A stretch of DNA of 64,000 nt from contig NC_090775.1 of NCBI RefSeq assembly GCF_001761485.1, forward strand, positions 3,938,966 through 4,002,965. The letters are read 5' to 3'. Position numbers and translations under genes: made by a program. Positions 23,100 to 46,193 of this stretch are shown piece by piece. Positions within the stretch are counted from its first letter, which is position 1. Each line of letters starts with the position of its first letter. The notes beneath the pieces were generated by a model. That model ran no database searches. It saw only the letters and a list, made by a program, of their open reading frames with translations, and had not been told where the DNA came from. This DNA is from Yarrowia lipolytica. Taxonomy: Eukaryota; Ascomycota; Dipodascomycetes; Dipodascales.

Positions 23100-24797
23100 A
23101 TGCTTCGAACACGATTCATCAACAGCGTCAACAGCGCACGAGCAATGTCTCGAAACATCAACACCCTGTCGCAATTCCCTTACCCCACCCTTCAGCAAGA
23201 GGAGAGCTTCTTCAAGAGCCAGGTCGAGGACATTGAAAAGTGGTGGGCCTCTCCTAGATATGAGGGCATCAAGCGACCCTACACCGCCGAGAAGGTGGCC
23301 ATCCACCGAGGTACTCTCCCCCAGACCTACGCATCTTCCGTCCAGGCCGAGAAGCTCTTCAACATCTTCACCGAGCGAGGCAAGCAGGGTCTTCCTGTCC
23401 ACACAACCGGTTCTGTCGACCCCGTCCAGATGACACAGAGCGCACCTCATCAGGAGGTGGTTTACATTTCCGGCTGGGCCTGTTCGTCCCTGTTGACTAC
23501 CACCAACGAGGTGTCACCTGATTTCGGAGACTACCCTTACGACACCGTTCCCAACCAGGTTGATCGAATCTTCCGAGCCCAGGGTCTTCACGACAAGAAG
23601 GCGTGGCACGAGTGGATGTCTCTGTCCCACGAGGAGCGAGTCAAGCGAGACCAGGAGGGCAAGGGCCGAATCGATTACCTGCGACCCATCATTGCCGACG
23701 CTGACACCGGCCACGGCGGTCTGTCTGCCGTTATGAAGCTGGCCAAGCTTTTTGCCGAGCGAGGCGCTGCTGCCATCCATCTCGAGGACCAGCTGCACGG
23801 CGGTAAGAAGTGCGGTCACCTTGCTGGCAAGGTCATTGTGCCCACCGGCTCTCACATTTCCCGACTCAATGCCACCCGAATGCAATGGGACATCATGGGC
23901 TGCTCCAACCTGGTGATTGCCCGAACCGATTCCGAGTCTGCCAAGCTGCTTTCTTCTGCTGCCGATCCCTCCGACCACGAGTACATCCTCGGTGTCGTCA
24001 AGCCCATCAAGCCCCTGGCCGAGGTCCTCCTCACCGCCGAGGCCAACGGCGCCACTGCCGATATGGTCAACAAGCTCGAGCTCGAGTGGACCAAGGAGGC
24101 CGAGATGATGACCTACGACGAGGCCGTGCAGCGAGCCCTGACCGAGGCCGGCAAGTCCGACAAGATCGAGGAGTACCTGACCAAGGCCAAGGGCAAGTCC
24201 AACTTTGAGGCCCGACAGATTGCCGACGAGCTGGCCGGCAAGCACATTTTCTTCGACTGGGACGCTCCCAAGACCCGGGAGGGCCACTACCATGTCCAGT
24301 GCGGCATTGAGCCTGCCATCAAGCGAGCTCTGGCCTTTGCTCCTTACGCCGATCTCATCTGGCTCGAGACCAAGACCCCCGACCTTGCCCAGGCCCAGGC
24401 CTTTGCCAAGCGAATCCGAGAGAAGTTCCCCGGCAAGTGGCTGGTGTACAACCTGTCACCTTCCTTCAACTGGTCTGCCCATGGCTACTCCGACGAGCAG
24501 CTGAAGTCGTTTGTGTGGGACCTGGCCAAGTCTGGCTTTGTCATGCAGCTCATCTCTCTGGCCGGCCTGCACTCCAACGCCGTCGCCACCCATGAGCTCT
24601 CCACCCGATTCAAGACCGAGGGAATGAAGGCATACGTGGACCTTGTCCAGCGAAAGGAGAAGGAGCTTGGATGTGACGTCCTGACCCACCAGAAGTGGTC
24701 CGGTGCCAACTACCTGGACTCCATCATCTCCACTGTCCAGTCCGGATCTTCCGGCACCTCTTCCACCGGTGGCGACTCCACCGAGAACCAGTTTTAA
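23100..24797 (+). CDS. ICL2: Mitochondrial 2-methylisocitrate lyase (isocitrate lyase family)
   Basis: 565 residues. The start [19 protein letters not shown] is Arg-rich, without acidic residues and amphipathic, typical of a mitochondrial presequence; the protein lacks a peroxisomal C-terminal tripeptide (it ends ENQF). The family signature KKCGHL lies at residues 236-241 with the catalytic Cys238. The metal and glyoxylate-binding segment around [10 protein letters not shown] (about 200) and the C-terminal NLSPSFNW block are present. Mitochondrial members cleave 2-methylisocitrate to pyruvate and succinate in the methylcitrate cycle, removing propionyl-CoA from odd-chain fatty acids and branched amino acids. 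The presequence separates this gene from the glyoxylate-cycle ICL1. Codon use is strongly biased (CGA, GAG, CCC), suggesting high expression. Confidence 0.93.
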
Positions 24798-27575: not shown

Positions 27576-30500
27576 ATGGGATGGGGAAAGAAATCGTCGT
27601 CATCGGCGGTCCCTAAGCCGCCTGCACAACCGCCCAAATCACCAGCCAAACCGCCGTCTTCTTCAGCATCGCAGCCTAGCTCCCGTGATCCGGCCATAGT
27701 TCCACGCGCAGACTGCAAGAAGAACTATTACTACCAGCAGATGTTGCATCGCCAGCTGAATGATGATGGTAGCACCGACAACCTGGCCACGCGCAACAGC
27801 TTTTCGTCGTCCGAGAACAAGACAATCCGAGAAGACATTCGCATGGGAGATCAGGAGGTGCTGCGTGACATCCGCGAGCTCAAGAGCGCTGGAAGCAACG
27901 TCCGCAGATCGCGATCGCCCCAGTTGCGGCCGCCTAGCGTCCACCAACGGCTTCCCTCGGACGATTCCATGTCCAATTCGAGTGAGTACAGTTATCGCGA
28001 CACAAGACCCACACTAATGACAAGCTAACACAGCCGACTACTATGTGGAACCTCTAAACAGGTGAGTGGATTCACAAGCGCAGCGCAAGGACGTATTCGT
28101 TACGTCACTAGAGGACCAGGTGCATAGCCCGATGGCGGCCAGTCTCAGACCTAATTTCCGCAGTTTTCCGATCCACTGAAATATTCTGGTCCACAAATAT
28201 TTGTCCGAATATTTAGACCGGAACAAGGCGCGTTTTTTGTGTTTCTGGTTCGGTACCACGCTACTGTTGGTGCGCACATTGCAATGTACTCTCACGAGCT
28301 ACCTATGCTGTAGTCTCCTTTTTTAGCGCCCCCCCCCACTAACCCAGTCCTCTGCCTTCCATATCCACGTCAGACACGTCTCTGACAGCTTCCACGGCAT
28401 TTTCCCGTGACCGTGAGTATAACAACGTTGCTACAGCAAGGGCCTCAACTATTACGCTCGTACACCCCTGACGATACAGACGCTCGATGAGAGAGATGTT
28501 ACTACGCTATTTGAGTTTAAGGGGTAAGCGATTTGGGCTTCCATTTGGACTCTGATTTGGAACTCCCGATCCTGATTCTTAGCTCTTAGCTCTTGTGACG
28601 TGTGAGGGAAAAAAAAAGCAACGACACCGTTTTTTTGCTTCTCGTACATCTGCCCCTGCAATGTCCACTTGTGGCACCCCTCGCTGTCTCTCCAACCGTC
28701 GCGTATAATATCGAGCTCAGTTATCGAGGCTACTAAGCAGCCTTCGTTAACCCCTTGAAGATCCTAACCCAATAGACCCGTCAGTGGTGAACTCAAAAGC
28801 TGCGGTGGCCAGTGTGAAATCCGCTAAATCGGATATCAGCATGAGAAGTACATCGAAATCCGTGGAGCGAAATCCATTCACCGGAGTGATTACTACCAAG
28901 TGAGTATGAGTGGAGGAAGTGGTTAACGAATGGCCCTGGGAACGGTCAGTGCTATGTGTGGTGTTCTCCTTTTACCCCTGGTTTACGATGCACGGTCCTT
29001 TTATGAGAAAACGCGTTAAGCTTTCGCCAGCCGTCTCACAATCTGCAGTCCCAAGAAAGACGACACATGAGTCTCGCGAAAGCGCACGACACGACACCAT
29101 ACACAAAAACAACCACACACACACACAAAAAGTCCACACCAGACAAGCACACAGACACCACAACATAAACCACACAAATCAGCCTGCTAACTCCAGACAC
29201 GACAGTATGTATCCTCACACTGCCCCAAACGATGGGATGAAAAAGACAGCTCCAGCTAACACAGTGGAACACGAAGGTTGGCTCAACAACTCGCTAACGC
29301 CAGGCGCACAATGGCGCTTGTCCCGAGGAGTGGTAAGAAATGGTCAACTGCTGGTATACAAGCCGCCGTCCGATCTATCCAACCGATTCCTCGACCCCGA
29401 CGCCCCCCGAACACAACCCTCGTCGACACACACTGCCATTTCAGCACCGTTCAACGCCGCTCCAGTGTCCGATGGCATGCTGTCGCATGCCTCAGCTGAG
29501 CCTCATCCGTCACTCGAACTCGATTCCAGCGGCACTCGCATCATGGGAGGCACTGTGGAAGCTGTGTGCCACCAGCTTCTGTTTGGAGACGACGATCTGC
29601 TCGCGGAATCGATAGTCTACGTGCTGCCCCTATTCACAGATGTGGTTTATGCACTGGACAAGATGTGCGAGTACATAATTGGACCCGTCAGAGACAGCCG
29701 CTCGAGCTTGGCACGCTACCAAGAACGAGCCGTGGCCCGAGCTGCCATGGCTGTGCGAAAGATCCAAGACGACTTTTCAGGCATGCTGCTGGAAACATCC
29801 ATCTGCTCGGCTTTGCTTAAACTCATTGACGGTATTGGTGCTCTGTCGGACCAGGTGAGCACCGATCTCAAGGTCAGCGTCTTCAAAAAACAGCGCCACA
29901 TGGGCGATCTGCTTACCCCCAGTCGAGAGGGTACTCTGTGGTCAGTACAACCAAAACTACCAGAATCCGTCAACGAGCGGCTGCAATCATTTCTGGTGTT
30001 CACCGAGCAACAGAACCAGCTTGGTGCTATGCAATCGTCGTCTGCGTCGTCGTCGTCATCGCACTCTTCACAATTCGGCTCGTCGTCGAGCCCCCAGACG
30101 TTCCCACCCGACCTCTTCCTCGACACTAGCATTGATCTTCTCGCATCGCAGGTCTACTACTTTCACCTGCAGTTTTCAGGCGCATGGTCGCCTGCGTCAG
30201 ACATGTCGCTGCTGTTTGGTGGTCGATGGAACTACTGGCGCCACAATCCGCTCATCTTCGACTCTCTGTCGGTCCACTTTTTAGGAGGAGTTCTGCTGGA
30301 GCACCTGTTTTCTGGCTCTGGCGCGGTGTCATCTGCCTACAGAGGCAAGCTACTCTCGCATTGGATCTCGCTTGGAAACGCCCTCAAGAACTGTGGCGAC
30401 ATGGTTGGCTGGCTAGGCATTGCGGGAGTTGTCTGCTCACCACCTGTACTGCGTCTACGAGACTCATGGGGCTTTGTGTCCACGGAAATCAAGGATTCTG

Positions 30501-33500
30501 TTACCAAGGAATGGGCCCCCGTGGTGTTTGACTTAGAGCGGCGTCTCAGAGTCACCGACATGTCGCGAAAGTCTACATATCACGTGCTTGCGCCCCAGGG
30601 CATTGGCCAGAGCTACCCCAAGGAGCGGGTGGTCCCATTTTTCGGCGACCTGTGTGTCCGATACGAAGATGGATCATCCTTCCGTCAGTGCGAGTCGCGT
30701 CTGAACCGTATCCGTACTGCATTTGAGCGGTGGCAGACGTACCTGGATCAGGTACCTCAGATCGACACCTTTGACTCTGCCGCCGAGCCCATCTCCGCAC
30801 TCCAACGAATGCTGTACTACCTGTTGAACCGCCATTCACAGGGAAACATTCCCTTCCACGTGTCCAACAAGGAGCCCATCTCTGCGCTGCTGAAAATGTC
30901 GCTGCAGTGCGAACCGTCGTCCAGTGGGCGATACCTGCCCCACTTTTATAATCAGCAGCTTCCTCTGCTGATGGGCAGTTTTGTACCCACCGTGTTCACA
31001 GACGTGACTCCGTCGTATCGGCTCTTTTCCAAGACCGATCTGCTCACTTTTGCAGGATTTGGCTCCCCAACCAAGAGAAGTGGCACTGGCATTTCGTCAC
31101 CTCTTCGGTCTCTGCCTTCTGGTACTTCTGGCACTGAGGTGGATCAGTTTGCCCGGCGGTATGTGAGCCAGTTCAGTACGCAGCATCCTCTGATTTGTTC
31201 CTTGCGAGACATCATGAATGTGGGCTCTAGCATGATCCAGGGCGATGACGTACTTCTCAAGGTGGTTTCTGAGGGCCCTGAGGGCTCAGATCCTACTGTC
31301 GTTGTCAAAGCTGCTTCTTTGGACCGGCTTATTGACATTCTGATCCTTGGTGTGGGACATTTTGCTCCTCGGGTCAAGATGGACATGGATCTATACACAC
31401 TGACGTTTTTCGCGACATTCCGGTCCTTCTGCTCGCCCACCCAGTTGCTGGACGCGTTTCGACGACGGTTTGTGGGCGCCCAGTCTGGCTCCACGTCTCT
31501 TACAATGCCTAGAACTTTTGATCAAAAGTTCCCCGACTGGGATTCCACTCACATCCCCGAGAAGCAGCCCGACTACAGACTGATGGCCCAGATACAGATT
31601 GGCATTCTTGAGGCCTGCTTCCTGTGGGTGTCGCAGTACTTTATCGACTTTGTCAATGAGTACGCTGTCAGAGAGCTCTTTCTGGACTTTTTGGCCACTC
31701 TGGAGGTTGAGATCTCTCGATGGGGAAGTGTTGTGTTCAACAGTGAAGACATTGTTCTCTACCGAGAGTCTCTCGAGGGTCTGCACAAGAAGCTGCGAAA
31801 ATTGTTCATCAAGAAGAGCTATCGGCCCGTGTCTGCCCCTCCCAAGATCCCTTACTTTGGTCCTTCATCCAAATACATCCAGATGCCCATCAATTGCGGT
31901 ATCAGCGATGTTGAGTCTTGGATTTCTGAGGTGGATCTGATGGCTGCCCACATCTTTGCTCTGGTGCCTCTGAAGGACTGGATGTCTCTATACGAGACTC
32001 TGGAGGTACAGGGCGTGGAGCCATTGGGCTTCTTTGCATTCCGAACGCCCTCTATGGCCACCGAAGACGAGGTTATTGTGCAGAGCGTCTACACCTACTT
32101 TGAGACGCTTTTCCGTGACAAGCCCGAGGACCGGGTGCTTTTGAACCTCCCCTTTGCAGTACAGGAACTGTTGCGACTCCACAACAACTTTGTTAGCTAC
32201 CTGACTGCCCAGTTGACGGACCTGTCCATTAGACCCGAAATTCGAGTGGCTCGAATGGAGACGTTGCTCAAGGGCATTGGCATTTGTCGTCGACGAATGA
32301 AGGCTGCTCGGGTGTTTGAAATGTCGCCCATGGCCGATCCCGAAGAGGGACCCCCTCCTCTGTCTCCCTCGGTTGCTCCTGCCATCCCCTCCTTTGTGGA
32401 GGTTGCTTTGGCGGCTGCAGCCATCCGACCCGAGTCCCGGCTCTTCACCGGCTCGTGGTTTGCTGCTGCCAAGGAGTGTGGTTCATCCACTGCCGACTCT
32501 CTGGAGTCCATCATACCGTACGTGGATGGCCAGCTCCAGAACAAGCCTCTGACTCCCTGTGTAGGCTGGCTGATTGAGCGAATGTTGGAGGCGTCGTGTC
32601 ACGTGCCCAACATGTGTGTGGAAACTCCCAAGCTCATCAACTTTGACAAGCGGCGGTACGCCTACAATCTGGTGGGGAATGTGTGCGACATTAGACCCCT
32701 AGATGAACAGCAGGACATGAACTTGCCCGAACAGACCAAGCGAATGAGCTTTTTGATCAACCTGTCCAAGGCTTCGTTTGCAATTGACCGTAAGGTGACC
32801 AAGGAGCATGCCGCCCGCGAAGCCAAGGCCTATGGCAAGTCTAAGAACCGGGTTTTTACCCACTGTGTGGGTGCTGAGCTGGAGAAGATCAAGCGAGATG
32901 TTCGACAGCGAGAGGTTCTCGATCGAAAGCGCCAACACGCCGTTCGAGCGCCCACCTCGTCTTCCAACTCGGAAAAGCGAGGCAAGTCGCGTCTGGGAGG
33001 CTTTCTCAAGGCTGTGCGACCCATATCCATGGCTCTGGGCTCGTCTTGGACTCCTCCGCAATCCCAGGAGGCATCTGGAATCAATCCCCTGGATCTCCCC
33101 ACCTTTTCGGTGGACAAGGTCAAGCCGTTCAGATCCATTCCTCTCGGTCACTCCGACATTTTCCCTGTGCATGCGCTGTCCAAGTCCATGTTCAAGATTG
33201 TGGACTCTTCGGGCGAGTACTCGTTCCAGGCTGCGTCTGAGGCCGACAGCGAGATTTGGCTCAAGGCGCTCACTCGGGCCAAGAACAGTGCTCCTCAGAC
33301 GAGCCAGTCCACTCGACAGATGGGTCGGGTGTTTGGCGTGCCCGTTGCTGTTGTCTGCGAACGAGAGCAGGCTGCTATTCCTTACATTTGTGAGGTGTTA
33401 CTTAACGAGATTGAGGCTCGAGGTCTGGACGAGGTTGGTCTGTATCGAATTTCCGGTTCTCTCAACAACGTCAATGCTCTCAAACAGGCCTTTGACAATG

Positions 33501-34168
33501 GTGAGCGTCCCGATATGAACGACGACCGATGGTATGATGTCAACACTCTGGCAGGCTGCTTTAAGCTGTATCTGCGAGAGATGCCCGAGCCGCTGCTTCC
33601 TCTGGAGCTGCTCCCTGACTTTGTGTCTTCCACCACAGGTCCACAGCCTGACCTGGCTGGCCTTCGAGCTGCTGCCGATCGAATGCCGGCACCCAACCTC
33701 AATTTGCTGCGACGTCTGGTGCAACATCTGTCTCTGGTGACCACGCACGGCGAGCAGAACCGAATGCATGCGGTAAACCTGGCCATTGTGTTCTCCATGT
33801 CCCTGTTGCCGCCCAATGCCTCGGCCAATGTTTCTACGGATCTCAGCAGTATGCAGACGGTTCTCAAGCTGCTCATTATCCACTGCGATGGAGTGTTTGG
33901 CAGCCTGGATGGAGGATCTACTACGGTTGTCGATGGTGCATCGACACCATCGTCTGGCCAGCTGGAGGCCCCCGACATGGCTTCGCTGACTCTGTCCGAG
34001 TCCAAGTCGACTTCAACGGTGGACTCTCTAGAGATGATGCAGGCGCCCACTTCTCGTCGACGACAGCCTGCGGGCCAAAACCCTAACAGACGATTTTCCG
34101 TGCTCAATGAGGGCACCAACTTTTCTGACCTGGCTCATCAGTTTGGGTCTCAGGAGAGTTTGCATTAA
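27576..34168 (+). CDS. BEM2: Bem2-like RhoGAP with RasGEF-type and PH domains, five exons
   Basis: I propose exons 27576-27981, 28034-28061, 28348-28412, 28776-28899 and 29197-34168. All donors are GTGAGT; acceptors follow CTAAC-type branch sites (for exon 4, CTAACCCAATAG, or alternatively nine bases later in the same frame). The reading frame joins cleanly, giving 1864 residues. The N-terminus is Pro/Ser-rich and disordered. A RasGEF N-terminal-like segment is near 910 (SLDRLIDILILGVGHFAP), followed by a diverged CDC25-like region, a PH domain near 1510-1575 and a C-terminal RhoGAP domain (about 1590-1750) with arginine finger GLYRISGS near 1621. This order is that of S. cerevisiae Bem2, a GAP for Rho1/Cdc42 in polarity and cell-wall control. 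An ATG at 28910 reads through intron 4 but is intronic in this model. Confidence 0.85.
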
Positions 34169-35475
34169 AAATATACACGTGTAGACACTAATGAATGATT
34201 TATTGATACAGATTTGGATCGTGTGTCTCAGACTCCCCGCGTTCTCGTGTATCGCGTAGTGTGAGACATTCAACGTGGATGCTCGTATTCATGGAGTGTA
34301 TAATATTGCCGATTCTATAGAAAGAACGTACTTGTATATTATAGGTTGTGTGTGTTACATACTTGTACTTATACTGTATGTGCTGCTCATATACAATGTA
34401 CAAGTACAAACTTGTTCCAAAATAATTCAGTCTGTAGCTACTGTACTTTTACCAGCTGTCTATAATGTTACAATCGTTGCTTCGTGTGCCATGAGGGGAA
34501 GCAACTGAAGGTATAGTCAATTCAGTGCAGACCTGAAACAATTAGCTACATGTACTCGTACTCGTAGACTTCGCCTGTTTCTCCACCACAACGTTACCGG
34601 AAGAATTTGACAGGGTATGTTCCGGGTTACAATTTTTGAACGTTCTCTGGGGTGGGACTGTTGGGGTTACATACGTCATTGTCTTGGAGAGGAATGTAGA
34701 GTGATGCGACGAGGGGCTGTAAGGTTCATAAGCGGATGTGTATATAGAAGCGCTTGTTGTATATAGTTACCGTGGTATATATAGTTACCGCTGAATGAGC
34801 CGTGTAGATTTCGTTTTCGCTATTACTGTTTCTTCTTTGCCATGGTGCCGTTCACGATGCCGTGCATTTACCCCACGTGAGTGATGCACGGTGGGTCTTC
34901 CGGGGTAACCGGGAGCGGTGGGCGTTAGTTTGACGCACTTGTACCCACTACCGGTATATACGTATTCGAACTATACATGCGGCATTGGTCTATGGAGGTG
35001 GTGGCAATGGTAGATAGTTCAGATCGGTAGCCGTGTTGGATGTTGCTCAAATGGAGTGGTCCAGTTGGCTTAAGGTTCGGTCGGAAAAAATAGACGGGAA
35101 AACAGACTGAAGATACTTGTAGAGTGGGAATGATGAGTGGGAGACACTGGGCAGGGTGTACCACACAATTATGAGCAAGAGAAAGGCAACAAAGTCGTTC
35201 TTGTCATCAGATACGAGCACACACTATAAATATGATACTCAGACTGCACCATCTTAACCACTACATCTTCGCTACGAACACCTCGGTTAAATTTTGAGCT
35301 TCCCCTCTGAACCCTCTCCACCTGGGTTTATGTTCCGGAGAAATACGGAACTCAGAACCGAGGGGCAAGCGGATTTAGAGCCAGATGGGGGGTGCATGGA
35401 CTTACTGTAGTGCAACCAAGAGGCCGGTAAAATGGATGGGTGTCGTACGAGTACCGTTACTTGTATTTGGGTGTT

Positions 35476-35476
<1 letters not shown>

Positions 35477-35514
<38 letters not shown>
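35477..35514. repeat. (AG)19 microsatellite
   Basis: An uninterrupted AG dinucleotide tract of 38 bp is followed by an imperfect GAGATAGAGCGAGAG tail. It creates Glu-Arg and Leu-Ser runs in spurious frames on both strands. Confidence 0.95.
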
Positions 35515-35520
<6 letters not shown>

Positions 35521-36154
35521 CGAGAGACGGAAGGAGATATTTGTGCAATAATAAAGAACATATAAGTACAATGGTCCGAATTGGGTGTCCAGTAGGTAGT
35601 AACCATATGGTACTTGTACGTAGAAGTAGCCTGCTTGCACAGACGTCTTTCATATGCAACTCCAGAGACTCCACTGAAGTCAGACATTGCCATTTCGGAA
35701 CAACAGTCTCAAACGCCCAACCGTCAGGGCATGAACTTCCTGGGAACCTTCTCTACGATACACAACCTCCACCAGCCAGTCAAAACAGTCCTTTAGCAAA
35801 CTTGCCCTGTATGAGAGACATTTGCCGCAGGATGACGTCAGGAGGACCAGGATCTGCGACGAGCATGAGGGTAGCGTGCGATATCGGCGAATATGGCATG
35901 GTATGAGTCATGGCAATAATGATTTGAGCGACATGGCAATATGAGCGTCATGGTTATTTCGCGTGTATACAAACATTTCCATTGACCCGTGTACCATGTG
36001 CCTTCAACCGAGGAGGTTATACTCAACGCACAAACAACACATCTGTTGGCTGTTGGGAAGAAGACCGGGTGGAACTGTGCCCGCTATGGACTATTCGCTC
36101 GGAGGTAGCTCGCGCAAGGACGCAGCTCAGTCTACAGCCGACGCATAGCTTCGC

Positions 36155-36195
36155 TCTTCCCTACCTGGTCCTTCCCTACCTGGTCCTTCCATGCC
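36155..36195. repeat. 15-bp tandem repeat, about 2.6 copies
   Basis: The unit CTTCCCTACCTGGTC occurs twice exactly, then a decayed copy starts CTTCCATGCC. Confidence 0.85.
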
Positions 36196-38465
36196 TCCCT
36201 CTGTTGATACTCCGGTCTCACCTTTGTAGTAATTTATCCCGACATATCCCCATTTATCCCATCCGCATCCGCAGGGGCGGAATCCGAACGGAGGGTCCAA
36301 TTCGGTAAAAGCCGAGAAAGCGGCAAAATAAAGCGATAATGGATATATTATTGTCTGTAGATGAAAAAATTGTTCACCAGTATTGATCCGAGCAGGCAGC
36401 TTCGACAAATGCTTTCTATGTGTAGATATAATTACTGTTGCCAAACCACACAAGCACTCTCTACCAACTGCCGTTATAGGATGTCTACCAGTACACACTC
36501 ACAGATGGCACATACGGTTATCGGCCATGTGGATTCCAACATGTCACATGTATGGTACTCGTAGTAATCTGGGGTGCGCTTTAAGGGGCACGGACCATGT
36601 TCGGAGGTGTAATGAGAATGCTTGAGCACCGTTGGTGTGGTGACACGTCGTAGGATTGTCGTGAACACATTTCTTCCACGTCAGTTTTCAGTTGCAATAT
36701 TCTGAATATTATGTCTCAGCTAAATTACCCCACCACCGCCGCTACGTGTAGACTGGTTACCCGTTCCAGTGGCATGTACCCACACAATCTCCCGATCACC
36801 CTTCAACTGTCGTACAAAGTAGCACCTCCGTCTAACCTCTTTTGGTAACTCACCCCAGACATTTCTCCCCACCCCCACCATGTCTGAACTTTAACCGTTT
36901 GAGGGTCTGGAGGGGACGTGGATACGGTGGATACGGTTAGAATGAGTCAGAGAGTTGCTATAGCGCGTGTAAAACCTGCCCAGCGACTTCTCCACGTCGC
37001 TAGGGCCCAGACAGTGCTCTCCAGAACGTTTTCAACTCGGCCAACCTTATTTCCAACAACGGCTTACCGAGCCAGATGCCGACGATAATGCACGACAAAG
37101 AAACTATGTAAGCTACAGACGGTTTTCACTTGCGCTCAAACACACGATAAGACGATAATGGTAATGAGGGGGATTGTTGAAAATCGGTCTAGAACTCGTT
37201 GTAGAACATCTAAGACGTCGACTGAACGTCCCAGTCAGTCTCCTCTCGAATCCGATTTTAACCATCCACCTTCTATTTCCAGCCGCCCACCCAAATGAGC
37301 GCTGTTTCGAGTGTTAAACAGTCCTGGCAGCGGCAGCTCGGATCAATTTTCACACTTTCTTTGGCTCTGGTTTTCACGCGGCAAACCCCACACGGTGGGA
37401 TGAAACAACATGGGTGAATGTAAAGGATGGATTTGGTGTGGGAAAAATATGATAATTTGACATAAATTCGGACAAAAATATTACTTTTATTATACCGTGT
37501 TTTTCCATTTTACAAAAATATATACTGCTCTAATAATCCCTCCTCCCAAAACACAACAACCTCGTATGGTGTAATTCCGGCAGCACTTTAATTTAGCCGG
37601 TCGGCCGACTCAAAATGGACCTGGCCACACAATGTAACCGAAGCCCATTCATGTATTGCTTGCTGCAGCACCACACACTGCTACCGACGTTCCGGTGGTT
37701 CTAGACCGCAGTGACCCCAGAATATATGGATTCGCCCTTTCGGCGCCACACGCGTGTTTTGGTAATTTTTTTCCGATTTCTAAGTCTCTCTCAGCCTAAC
37801 AATTAATCTAGAACCACCTTGTATTTGCACCTAAACGTCGGAAGACAGATTAGGGAAAAATCCGAGATATTTTCCAGCGCTCATATACTAATTATCAATC
37901 GCCAACCTCTGGCGCAAACGTGAAATCGAGGCCCCCAACGAAAGGCTATAGATTGTGTGGTTTTCTCACGGGCATGCTCTCACGTGCGTCGGAAAGGCTA
38001 TACGGAAAAAAAAGTGAGCCTGAGTCAAGAGGTCTCGGAATAAATTGGCACTGCTGAAAAAAATTGACTGTCGAGTTATATTGCTGTGTTGATGGGCTTC
38101 AAGTGGGGCCACACCTCAGAGTAGAGGTATCATGACTCCTGCCGCACAAGACCCGGGCGGCTGTCAGCGCCGTGTTTACATTTTTCCGTGGTTCCGGGAC
38201 CGCCCTTTGCATTTTCACTCATGTATCTATATTTTGTAGCCGCAGAAACCTCCTCCACATTTTCCCCAGCCGAACAAGGTTCGGATGCATCGGTAGAAAC
38301 GGAGTCTAAAAGCTGGGAGAGCCTACGAAAAAGAGACCACACTCAGCAGCACACCCTAAAGGGCCCAAACCCACCAAAAAAGAGGAAAACAGAGTTATGG
38401 ACTTAGCTCTGTGTGCATGTGCGGAGTAGATAGGATACTGCATCCTGTTGATTGTATGATATATA

Positions 38466-41400
38466 ATGGCTCCATCCCCAGATATCAAAATAGATCGACT
38501 CGCAACTTCAATGTCTGATACTGAACAACACGGTGCGGTTCCCCCGCGAAAGAGAACCAAGGTGTCTAGAGCCTGCGACGAGGTGAGTGTGTTTTGGGAT
38601 GCTTTGTGGTCTTAAGTGGCCTTCTGGAGGTGGTAACAGCTTGAGGAGGATGCAAATTGATGTTTTGAGGGTCAGAGGGTGGCTGGGAGCGTCTCCACCG
38701 CCCGCTTTACACCCCAGAGTGACTCTACCCCCTCTTCTGAATTCGGTGGATGTGTTGTGTGTTGTGTTGCGGGTGTGACGACACGGAACAGCTCGGAACA
38801 TTTACCCACGCCACACTTGACAAGACATCGACTGGGGTTTGTGCACCAGGGAACCGAAAACTACGACTGGTGGCGCTATCTTCGTGCACAAACTGATGGG
38901 GTGATTTTACCCAGACACTCCCATCATTTGGGGAATGGCACCACCGATCGCCCTACCATGTTGCTATTTGCTTACACTCTTCCCCAGAATTAAACTAACT
39001 CAGTGTCGTCGGAAAAAAGTAAGTGAACCTTGTGCTCCACATGAAAACGGAATTTTCCGGTGCTTGACTTGTGCTGCGCCTTCCCCTCTTTTCGGCCGAT
39101 GGCGGACGAAGGGTTGAACGGAAATAATCGAAAAGTGGGAAAAATGGAATCTCGACATTTTGGGCGGATTCTCGGCTACCGACTGGAAGAAATTATTTCG
39201 ACAGGTTGTCAGTGGGGCTCGCCAGGCAGAAATTCGGCGACTTGGGAATTTTTCCTTTTGCCAAAATCTGGCCTTTTGGGCCCGACTCCACCCGACTCCA
39301 GCCGCACCGTTCCGGCCCCACGCGACTTTTGGGCGGCTCGGCCCTCGGCGACTTTTAGGGAAGCTTATTGCGGACAGGCTTTCCATAAGTTGTGGTCACG
39401 ATAACTCGCCCAAAACCCCGGCCCAACCTTAATTTTTACACTTCATTTTGCGCCGCTGTCATTGGCCCGTCGATTCCGAAGAGGGGACTCTGTCTAAAAG
39501 CCTCTTTTATCCGAACCTGGAATCCGTTGCCGAGCGTGATAAATTGAGTGACTGGCAGACGTCCAAAAGCAAATACCATACAACAAACAACTAACCCAGA
39601 TTCGATGTGATGCTGCTCCCGATAAGCCCACAGATTCGAGATGCTCGTCTTGCCGAAAGACCGGAGAAACATGCACTTTCAGCCGTGTCCCTATGAAGAG
39701 AGGACCTACCAAAGGGTGAGTATTATGACGGAGGATTTTCGGACAACTCAGAGAGAGGGTCGGTCAGATGCGGCACTGCGGCACTGCTGCCCTTTCTTTC
39801 AGGCTGTCGTGTGCTGCCGATTATGCACTAAATGACTCATGAGTCAACCAACTCTATTTTGCCTGGACCCTGAACCTGATTACTAACCCTACAGACACAG
39901 AAGAGAATCCACCTCTTCGTTCAGCAGAACATCGCAACCGGTGTTCATCCACCCCAAGTCCGAGAAGGACCTCATGTCGCCCACGGCGGATGAGCTAGCT
40001 CCTGTCTTCCCGCCTTCGCCACCAGTCAATGCGCCTGGAGCTGCTTGCTCCGACTACCCCATGCGAAAGCGGGCATTTTCTCAGACACACAGGTTCTCGA
40101 CTGCCTTCCATCCACGCACTGAATTTCACCCGTCCTGTTTCCCCTCAACAGCAACAGCTGCAGCAGGCTGCACCTGGAGCTCCTGCGTCGGTGCCCCCCA
40201 TGGACATGTACCGACCCAACATGTTCTTCAAGGTCGATCGACGGGCCTCTCTGCCCGGCTACCCTCCTAACATGACCATGCCCAACCCTGCACCCAAGAG
40301 TGAGGGGTACGCACCCTCCCAGGTCAGCAACAGTCCTCCTCACAGCAGCTTTTCGTCCCACCAGACACAGCAGCCCCACAGCATGGGCCAAGCAACTGCC
40401 ACGCCACCCCCCTCGCGCAGCGAAGAAAAGTACCTCGATAACTACTACCAGGTGGTGCATCCAATTCTACCCATTCTCCCCCCCAAGGCCGTTGTCGAAC
40501 AGTGGCTGGTACAGGCTGAGCCAACCGTCGGCGCAAAACTCAGAGAGTGTCTGTTGCTGGCACTCAAAAACATCTATGTGTCTAGTGGCGGAGCTCAGAC
40601 TGGTTCTGAGTCCGTGGCTCGCCAGCTGTGTGAATTGCAGATTGCATTGGCCAGCAGCGAGACTGTATCAGATCTGTCTCTGGGTTCTGCCAAGCAAGCA
40701 ATTAGCAACAACACCTGTTCCACTGCCGCCACAACCCACATTCTGCATCTCATGATCCAGCTGCTGGTGTTTGTGCAGACCCAGGACTACTCCCGACTGG
40801 CTACCTCTGTGGCCCAGGGTTATGCTCTCGGCATCCACACCATTTACGCTACCGGCAAGCGACCCGAGTTTGAGTCTGCGCTCAACCTCATGACACACCA
40901 CAACAACGAGGCCACCTCGACACACAACAACGTTGACAACGAGTCCATCTGGGACACATGTTACCGACTGCACATGCTGGTTTTTGTGCTGGACCGTCTG
41001 CACTCGCTGCGAATGAGCACCCCTGCTCTCATGGACCCCCAACTCGTGTTGGTGACTCTGTGTGATGGTCTGCCCAAGGTGCTGCTCAAGCTGCAGGGCC
41101 TCAATTTCCTAGTGGCCTTGGCTCTGTCTGTGGCCACTCCTGAAACTCAGTCGTTCTCGCTACAGCGACACGAGTGGTTCAAAAAGTCTTTGCTGCAGCC
41201 CGGAAATCCTTCCCTCACCCAACACGCCTTTGATAGACTAATGCAGAGTGTTCGAGGCCAGGCTGTTTCCTGGGCCAAGGCCATGAGTCTGTACGCCGAG
41301 GCTATTCGACAGTACCAGCAGCAGCAGGGCTGGGAGAAGATTCTCTCTACTATCTCTTCTCTGGTTGACACTGTAGACACCTCTTTGATGGCTGCTGTGC

Positions 41401-41822
41401 CTCTCATTTCTGAGTACTTTGTCCACGAGGTGATTTCTCTAATCTCCGGCCTGGTGTCTGCATTTGGATCTGAAATCGATTACGAAGCCGTCCACATGGC
41501 TGGAGAGGTTGTCGAGCGACGATTCCCCCAGCAGGTCAACCACTGGAAGCTGGCTGTGGCCCCCAAGTTGCCCAAGAATGATGTGGCTGATGCCGTGGTG
41601 ATGGCTGCCGTTAACTCGGCGCACTCTAGCGCACCTCCCAGCGCCACGACCGCGTCGACCGCCTCTTCCACATCATCTCTCTCCTCCCCGCCGCCAATGA
41701 GCATCCGAACGCTTCCGCCGGCCGGATCTCTGGGTCACCAGCAAGGCTTCATGCAGAAGCCTTTTGACAAGAGTCTTCTGGAGGGCCTGGCAAGTGTTGC
41801 CATGCACCGACCTAGACACTGA
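38466..41822 (+). CDS. Zn(II)2Cys6 transcription factor (RGT1-like) with a 15-nt microexon and an apparent frameshift
   Basis: Exons are 38466-38582, 39004-39018, 39600-39715 and 39895-41822. Introns have GTGAGT or GTAAGT donors and CTAACTCAG, CTAACCCAG and CTAACCCTACAG acceptors. Joined in frame, exons 1-3 give the zinc cluster: SRACDE, CRRKK (the microexon) and IRCD, then SRCSSCRKTGETC. Together this is the canonical six-cysteine pattern. RVPMKRGPTKG follows, like the region after the cluster in yeast Rgt1. Exon 4 begins in one frame and continues from about 40.0-40.1 kb to the stop in the +1 frame (see finding). Reading across it gives about 724 residues. The C-terminal part has the fungal-TF middle homology block (YYQVVHPILPILP; later YRLHMLVFVLDRLHSLRM). 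It is a DNA-binding regulator; a sugar-sensing role like Rgt1 is inference. Confidence 0.82.
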
Positions 41823-44842: not shown

Positions 44843-46193
44843 AGTGAGTATGGAGAGATGGACTGGACTTCCATCATCGAGAAGATGTCACAGGATTGTC
44901 TGTTGGCAGGAAGTCTACAGCTAGTTGTGGTACAGTACCATTGGAAGTGGCGGTGGACTATTAAGAGTTGAAGTTGTTGATGTTTCTGAGAATGCTTATC
45001 GATCTTGGAAACGTTCACCACTGTCAGCTTATGCTCAGAACAACTCAATGACAACCTTTCCAACTCAGTACCTCAGTTAATTATCTCCTTTGCTAATTTC
45101 AGTGCTCTCGTTCATTGCCCTCTTTCTTCTTGTTGCTCAGGCTCTCGCGCAAACGGCTCCTATCACCCAGGAGACATACGACTTTGTTCTCAAGTACGGA
45201 TGGCTATCTAACGTGGCCTATTGTGTCAGAGCCCCTGGCCCATTTGCCCTGCAGAGCGATTTTACCTGTGGAAACTCTTGCGCTCATTTTCCCGATGTGA
45301 CTCTTGACTACCAGTTTGGAGGAAATTTCTTCTCGACTTCAGTTACTGGATTTTTGGCCCACGATCACACCAAAAAGGAAAAGTATATTGTTTTCCGAGG
45401 CACTTTCTCCATTGCAGACGCTATTACTGACATCCAAACGATCCAACAACCCTACATGACCAGTATCCCTCCTCTTAACACTACTGACATAAACTCCACA
45501 AACCCTTCTGCCAGTATCAATTGTCCTGGCTGCCAAGTTCATGATGGCTTTCAGAAGGCATACAGAGAGACTATGGTGAACGTACAGGATCGTCTGGTCG
45601 ACTTCCTTGGAAACAACACTGACTACAAATTGATCGTAACTGGCCACTCTCTAGGAGCTGTCACTGCTCTATTCATGGGCATCAACCTGAAGAATCTTGG
45701 ATATGATCCAACGCTAATCAACTATGGGCAGCCTCGACTTGGAAACAAGGCTTTTGCAGACTACGTGGACGCTCTGTTCTTTAAGCAAGGAGACGACGGA
45801 CTTACCATCAACCCCGAAAGACGGATGTACCGAGTCACTCACTGGAACGACTTCTTTGTTGGATGGCCCGCTGGTTATTCACATACTCTGGGAGAAGTTT
45901 ACATCAGTGATCCCACAGGTATTAATGCTCCTATTGAAGATGTCTATTCCTGCGCTGGACCAGAGAATAATCAGTGTCACCATGGATCATTCAATCTTCT
46001 AGAACGACTCAACATTCTCAAGAACCATTGCGGTTATCTCAATTGGATTTTCTACTGTGCTATCAATGTGGACAAGAGAGAGATGATGATTGATCCTCCC
46101 CGAGTTGGCAAGAGAGTTGAGCATTGGAGTGGCAAGTTTTCTGATGTTGAATCGACAGAAGGCCTGATGTATGAGGCCATTTATCCTATGTAA
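44843..46193 (+). CDS. Secreted class-3 lipase (LIP2 family), start codon split by an intron
   Basis: The coding frame opens at 45090 only with TTG. A CTAATTTCAG acceptor ends at 45102, and exon 2 begins with TG. The only good upstream donor, GTGAGT at 44844, follows an A at 44843; joining them makes ATG followed by a clean signal peptide (LSFIALFLLVAQALA). CDS is 44843 plus 45103-46193, 363 residues. Family features: KYGWLSNVAYCV, CAHFPDV, the oxyanion/strand region YIVFRGT, nucleophile elbow VTGHSLGAV (Ser), Asp in THWNDFF, and His in KNHCGY, aligning with Ser162/Asp230/His289 of Y. lipolytica Lip2. It hydrolyses extracellular triglycerides. Sequons include NNT and INST. The C-terminus extends about 40 residues beyond Lip2. 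I recall this locus as LIP17 but am not sure enough to assign it. Confidence 0.88.

Follow-up and report, generated by a model that had tools for sequence, protein, structure and literature searches.

A 64,000-nt stretch of the Yarrowia lipolytica genome (contig NC_090775.1, positions 3,938,966 to 4,002,965 of the forward strand; hereafter the window, in whose coordinates all positions are given) contains a gene for a Zn2Cys6 zinc-cluster regulator in which the second zinc-binding cysteine and the basic core of the cluster are encoded by a separate stretch of 15 nt at 39004-39018. This microexon is very probably real, and we consider it highly likely that it is a genuine internal exon of the regulator gene, included by default through removal of the two ordinary consensus introns on either side of it.

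Gene structure and the zinc-cluster domain

The gene model of the regulator is made up of the following features.

38466-38582, plus strand: exon 1, 117 nt, from the ATG to ...KRTKVSRACDE, with the first cluster cysteine; end phase 0
38583-39003, plus strand: intron 1, 421 nt, GAG/GTGAGT ... ACTAAC-T-CAG, phase 0
39004-39018, plus strand: microexon (exon 2), 15 nt, CRRKK, phase 0 on both sides
39019-39599, plus strand: intron 2, 581 nt, AAA/GTAAGT ... ACTAAC-C-CAG, phase 0
39600-39715, plus strand: exon 3, 116 nt, IRCD...CSSC...C..., with cysteines 3-6; end phase 2
39716-39894, plus strand: intron 3, 179 nt, AGG/GTGAGT ... ACTAAC-CCTA-CAG
39895-40091, plus strand: coding part of exon 4, continuing the frame of exon 3, which has no stop before the one ending at 40270
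40092-41822, plus strand: remaining coding region, 576 aa and stop, shifted by one base relative to the frame of exon 4

An in-frame TGA lies 9 nt 5' of the ATG at 38466. Exon 1 ends with PPRKRTKVSRACDE, its last residues being ...KVSRACDE, and exon 3 starts with IRCDAAPDKPTDSRCSSCRKTGETCTF (IRCD). The original prediction, which had pointed out that these two exons lack the second cysteine and the basic core, was exact in both coordinates and sequences. The 15-nt exon that it placed in the gap, TGTCGTCGGAAAAAA, is translated as CRRKK, and the splice signals it named on both sides are present: CTAACTCAG forms the acceptor side of intron 1 (last base 39003), the GTAAGT donor of intron 2 occupies 39019-39024, and the acceptor side of intron 2, CTAACCCAG, extends up to 39599.

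Zn2Cys6 clusters follow the spacing rule C-x2-C-x6-C-x5-12-C-x2-C-x6-8-C. With the microexon in place the regulator reads C-x2-C-x6-C-x11-C-x2-C-x6-C, so that the cluster is completed in frame, as had been proposed, with the six-cysteine spacing of PF00172; joining exon 1 directly to exon 3 gives five cysteines. The Pfam family Zn_clus (PF00172) matches the included form at residues 35-76 with 37.6 bits (E 2.3e-9, profile positions 1-37 of 39), and the skipped form with 17.2 bits (E 0.0056, profile 11-37). The curated cut-off of the family is 21 bits, which places the included form above and the skipped form below it. A sequence search of the PDB with the 56-residue included domain yielded seven distinct matches at E≤0.1, namely the ethanol regulon factor (E 3.1e-4), three Gal4 entries, Lac9, Cyp1 and one unrelated ribonuclease, while the 51-residue skipped form found none at the same threshold. 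In the alignment with Gal4, CRRKK stands opposite CRLKK, whose lysines contact DNA.

We propose that introns 1 and 2 would be removed by default, joining CDE, CRRKK and IRCD. Since the second cysteine ligand of the cluster and the basic residues next to it come from the microexon, a working DNA-binding domain would be expected from the microexon-containing mRNA alone, and skipping would probably abolish DNA binding.

Splice signals and short exons

Strict patterns were defined as GTRAGT for the donor and CTAAC, followed by 0-4 nt and YAG, for the acceptor. Within the 1,017-nt gap between exons 1 and 3 these patterns pick out two donors (38583, 39019) and two acceptors of the CTAAC type (39003, 39599), and no others; all four belong to the gene model. 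With relaxed patterns, GTGTGT at positions 38587 and 38757 also qualifies as a donor, and a single weak acceptor motif appears at 38657. The donor motif alone is unspecific, with 41 occurrences on the plus and 21 on the minus strand of the window. Strict acceptors are scarce (11 on the plus and 5 on the minus strand), and eight of the 11 on the plus strand are intron ends of two multi-intron models, those of the regulator and of the following gene, which served as a control.

27576-34168, plus strand: RasGEF/RhoGAP gene, six-exon model, open, 1,844 aa; fits YALI0F32043g

We infer exon sizes of 406, 28, 65, 124, 8 and 4,904 nt for this control gene. The model reproduces the published features of YALI0F32043g, which are five introns, an alternative 3' site that extends exon 4 by 15 nt, and a stop-free intron 5 of 60 nt, and it remains open with the published splice alternatives (1,849 and 1,864 residues). 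The strict pattern recovers five of its five acceptors and four of its five donors, intron 5 beginning with GTATGT.

When 38589-39590 was dinucleotide-shuffled 20,000 times, 14 of the shuffled sequences contained an acceptor-donor pair not more than 60 nt apart; in five the enclosed length was a multiple of three, and in none did such an exon encode C[RK]x[RK][RK]. The whole window holds two pairs of this kind on both strands together, at 39004-39018 and 28034-28061. If bare AG..GT boundaries are allowed instead, the gap offers 27 stop-free candidates of 3-60 nt with a length divisible by three. Six of them have a cysteine among their first three residues: five start at 38588, and the sixth is 39004-39018. 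A different exon as the source of the missing residues can thus be rejected, since the rivals at 38588 would require an intron of 5 nt.

All three modelled introns of the regulator match the published Y. lipolytica consensus (GTGAGT/GTAAGT, CTAAC near CAG). In PMC2911113 GTGAGT is given as the donor consensus with GTAAGT in second place, and CTAAC is present in >92% of the introns at a mean spacing of one base. The distance from the branch-point ACTAAC to CAG in the regulator is one base in introns 1 and 2 and four bases in intron 3.

Taken together, the agreement in splice signals, phase, length and CRRKK goes far beyond what chance would produce. This, together with the fact that the remaining five cysteines are all in place, speaks against the reading that the 15-nt stretch is a chance look-alike in a decayed or non-DNA-binding relative of zinc-cluster regulators; a frame change further downstream, described below, could signal such decay, and we nevertheless find this reading scarcely credible.

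One remark of the original prediction has to be abandoned, namely that 15 nt lies at the lower limit of exon size for yeasts. In Y. lipolytica genes with several introns most internal exons are short, and the shortest, of 4 nt, is backed by two cDNAs (PMC2911113). Because of this exon and the 8-nt exon inferred in the control gene, which should be spliced some 9 kb away from the microexon, we reject a yeast minimum close to 15 nt.

The downstream frame change and the locus

Translation after exon 3 remains open through exon 4, and the long C-terminal open reading frame (ORF), which runs to 41822, is one base off. According to codon usage, scored for a one-base skip only, the frame change is best placed at 40085, 40088 or 40091 (within 0.2 log units), and positions 40070-40100 lie within 2.7 log units of the best site. 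At about 40085-40093 of the plus strand the context ACACACAGG includes the rare codon AGG (14 of 5,452 codons). Neither a GTRAGT donor nor a strict acceptor was found near the frame change, and no strict CTAAC acceptor occurs on the plus strand past 39894. By arithmetic, 226 GT/GC-AG pairs would restore the frame (donor 39990-40269, acceptor up to 40419); all of them are weak, with a loose branch-like motif in 41 and a GTRWG donor in none. The frame change is therefore without a convincing intron. Most likely it is a sequence error or a strain indel; a real frame change or a translational frameshift is less likely. It lowers confidence in the gene model as a whole and leaves the microexon unaffected: with the frame as printed, the product would have about 207 residues and still include the zinc cluster.

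For the 576-aa C-terminal part Pfam gave no match, and thereby none to a Fungal_trans-type middle homology domain, and NCBIfam gave no family at E≤0.01 for either this part or the spliced N-terminus. A single-sequence AlphaFold2 model of the 576 residues is helical, with a mean pLDDT (predicted local distance difference test score) of 37.8 that is too low for use. The C-terminal ORF has an ATG of its own and then spans 40029-41822 on the plus strand (597 aa), where a gene finder, which could easily overlook so short an exon, might annotate a regulator lacking its DNA-binding domain.

Some observations weigh against a genuine, constitutive microexon. The base at donor position -1 is G in introns 1 and 3 and A in intron 2, so that the microexon does not end in the commoner G (48.5%); A is likewise found at this position in three of the five introns of the control gene. 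Given the one-base frame change, the gene may be broken or frameshifted in this copy, or its sequence may contain an error. A scan of prokaryote contigs with the 576-aa part matched a pattern in 12 stretches, none of which was confirmed as a relative.

Two further genes in the window served, together with the RasGEF/RhoGAP gene, as landmarks for the locus.

23100-24797, plus strand: isocitrate lyase-family gene, NCBIfam TIGR01346 with 622.9 bits (cut-off 275.9)
45090-46193: class 3 lipase gene

The isocitrate lyase-family gene is below the cut-offs of two other NCBIfam isocitrate lyase models, and scores 63 bits against the methylisocitrate lyase model (cut-off 354.4). In the literature available to us YALI0F31999g is listed as 2-methylisocitrate lyase and LIP17 as YALI0F32131g; despite the weak methylisocitrate lyase score, the gene at 23100-24797 seems to be YALI0F31999g. 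The three landmark genes point to chromosome F of Y. lipolytica as the probable location of the window, and the regulator would accordingly sit between F32043 and F32131. Identity of the regulator with YALI0F32043g itself was rejected, since the published features of that gene fit the RasGEF/RhoGAP gene at 27576-34168. Our literature search found YALI0F32043 only in PMC2911113, and found no paper with the guessed tags F32065, F32087 or F32109 for the regulator.

The tail KRGPTKG after the cluster is, as we presume, reminiscent of Rgt1-type regulators. Two published tags described as 'Rgt1-related', YALI0C07821g and YALI0D02783g, carry the chromosome letters C and D, and the regulator locus probably lies on F; the available text of PMC7979807 mentions Rgt1 for Saccharomyces cerevisiae only.

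About 4.3 kb 5' of the regulator (34169-38465) are without an ORF of 200 aa and contain a GA-repeat near 35480. The stretch is a possible long control region, and shorter or spliced genes may also be present there.

Splicing mode and comparison with known zinc-cluster microexons

Given the consensus splice sites, constitutive inclusion of the microexon is to be expected. The original prediction had raised the possibility of an on/off switch. In such a regulated cassette, conditions would decide between inclusion and skipping (38582 joined to 39600), and the product would accordingly bind DNA or be an in-frame protein that does not, possibly with a dominant-negative effect. The properties on which the original prediction built this idea are present: skipping is frame-neutral, the exon length being divisible by three, and it removes the DNA-binding core with five cysteines remaining. 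Exon skipping has been reported for four Y. lipolytica genes, and a 39-nt exon of YALI0B15598g is mostly skipped (46 cDNAs versus 2; PMC2911113). The branch point and the 5' splice site of that exon, however, are suboptimal, whereas in both introns flanking the regulator microexon the 5' site, the branch point, its spacing and the CAG all follow the consensus, and non-retention alternative transcripts were seen in just 1.8% of intron-containing Y. lipolytica genes (PMC2911113).

The closest precedent for a switch is the regulator Xlr2 of Trichoderma virens, in which a 20-nt zinc-cluster exon encoding PCRRCE is included without glucose, as seen by RNA sequencing (RNA-seq) and reverse transcription PCR; in the presence of glucose, exon 1 and the part from exon 3 onward form separate transcripts (PMC11121469). 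As no reads joining exons 1 and 3 were seen in that study, even this precedent is not simple skipping. The published glucose dependence of the Xlr2 microexon makes the switch idea plausible, and for the same reason it is not new. Judged by the splice sites, a switch role appears improbable; we regard a regulated cassette as distinctly unlikely, and the chance is slim that the regulator has a frame-preserving on/off cassette, skipped under some condition to give an otherwise intact protein unable to bind DNA. Such a true cassette would be the yeast equivalent of the Xlr2 switch. If true, a switch role would raise the importance of the microexon.

Regulation, if there is any, might instead act through intron retention and nonsense-mediated decay, so that splicing efficiency would set the amount of protein. 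Retention of intron 1 leads to a stop after 49 residues and retention of intron 2 to a stop after 76, and unspliced RNA would therefore be an expected target of decay. Retention, mostly of the first intron and tied to decay, is the main mode of alternative splicing in Y. lipolytica (PMC2911113), and intron 1 of Xlr2 is retained in some transcripts of T. reesei (PMC11121469). The strong splice sites, on the other hand, predict efficient splicing, and we consider regulation by retention rather unlikely. It is compatible with constitutive inclusion, and neither excludes the other.

If the exon is real, any model of this locus that omits it would depict a regulator whose DNA-binding domain cannot work, and experiments that start from such a model, whether knock-outs, overexpression or the study of binding sites, would be misleading.

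Zinc-cluster microexons are already in print, and the novelty of the Yarrowia case is modest. The short internal exons of Y. lipolytica described in PMC2911113 share their splice consensus with the regulator microexon; this paper names no zinc-cluster case, the word 'zinc' being absent from its main text. The literature on Yarrowia and microexons or micro-exons gave no report of this exon among the matches listed; in PMC4651352 the term 'micro-exon' denotes an option of an aligner. In Aspergillus fumigatus rttA the zinc cluster was located in overlooked upstream exons, and a small exon had been overlooked as well (PMC12502532); this small exon lies elsewhere in the gene, and neither its size nor a zinc-cluster location is stated in the available text.

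Xlr2 is likewise a Zn2Cys6 protein with a microexon inside the zinc-cluster coding sequence, and its microexon was missing from the annotated gene model (PMC11121469). The two exons differ in that the one of Xlr2 has 20 nt, is not a multiple of three and supplies two cysteines, whereas the one described here has 15 nt and supplies one. The Xlr2 microexon is moreover present in the orthologues of the analysed Trichoderma species and is glucose-dependent. The CeGAL study (PMC10141177) reports that the Rhizopus delemar protein I1CF81 has five of six cysteines because of a mispredicted two-residue exon, and that Y. lipolytica has no MHD-only proteins in UniProt. As in I1CF81, a short exon is needed here to complete the six cysteines of the Zn2Cys6 cluster; I1CF81 belongs to another gene and phylum, and its exon was shown by comparison with a neighbouring sequence. 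If the microexon is real, Y. lipolytica would be the third, distant fungus, after Trichoderma (Xlr2) and Rhizopus (I1CF81), with a zinc cluster split by a very short exon, which would make it worthwhile to search 'five-cysteine' regulators for overlooked microexons in a domain-aware way.
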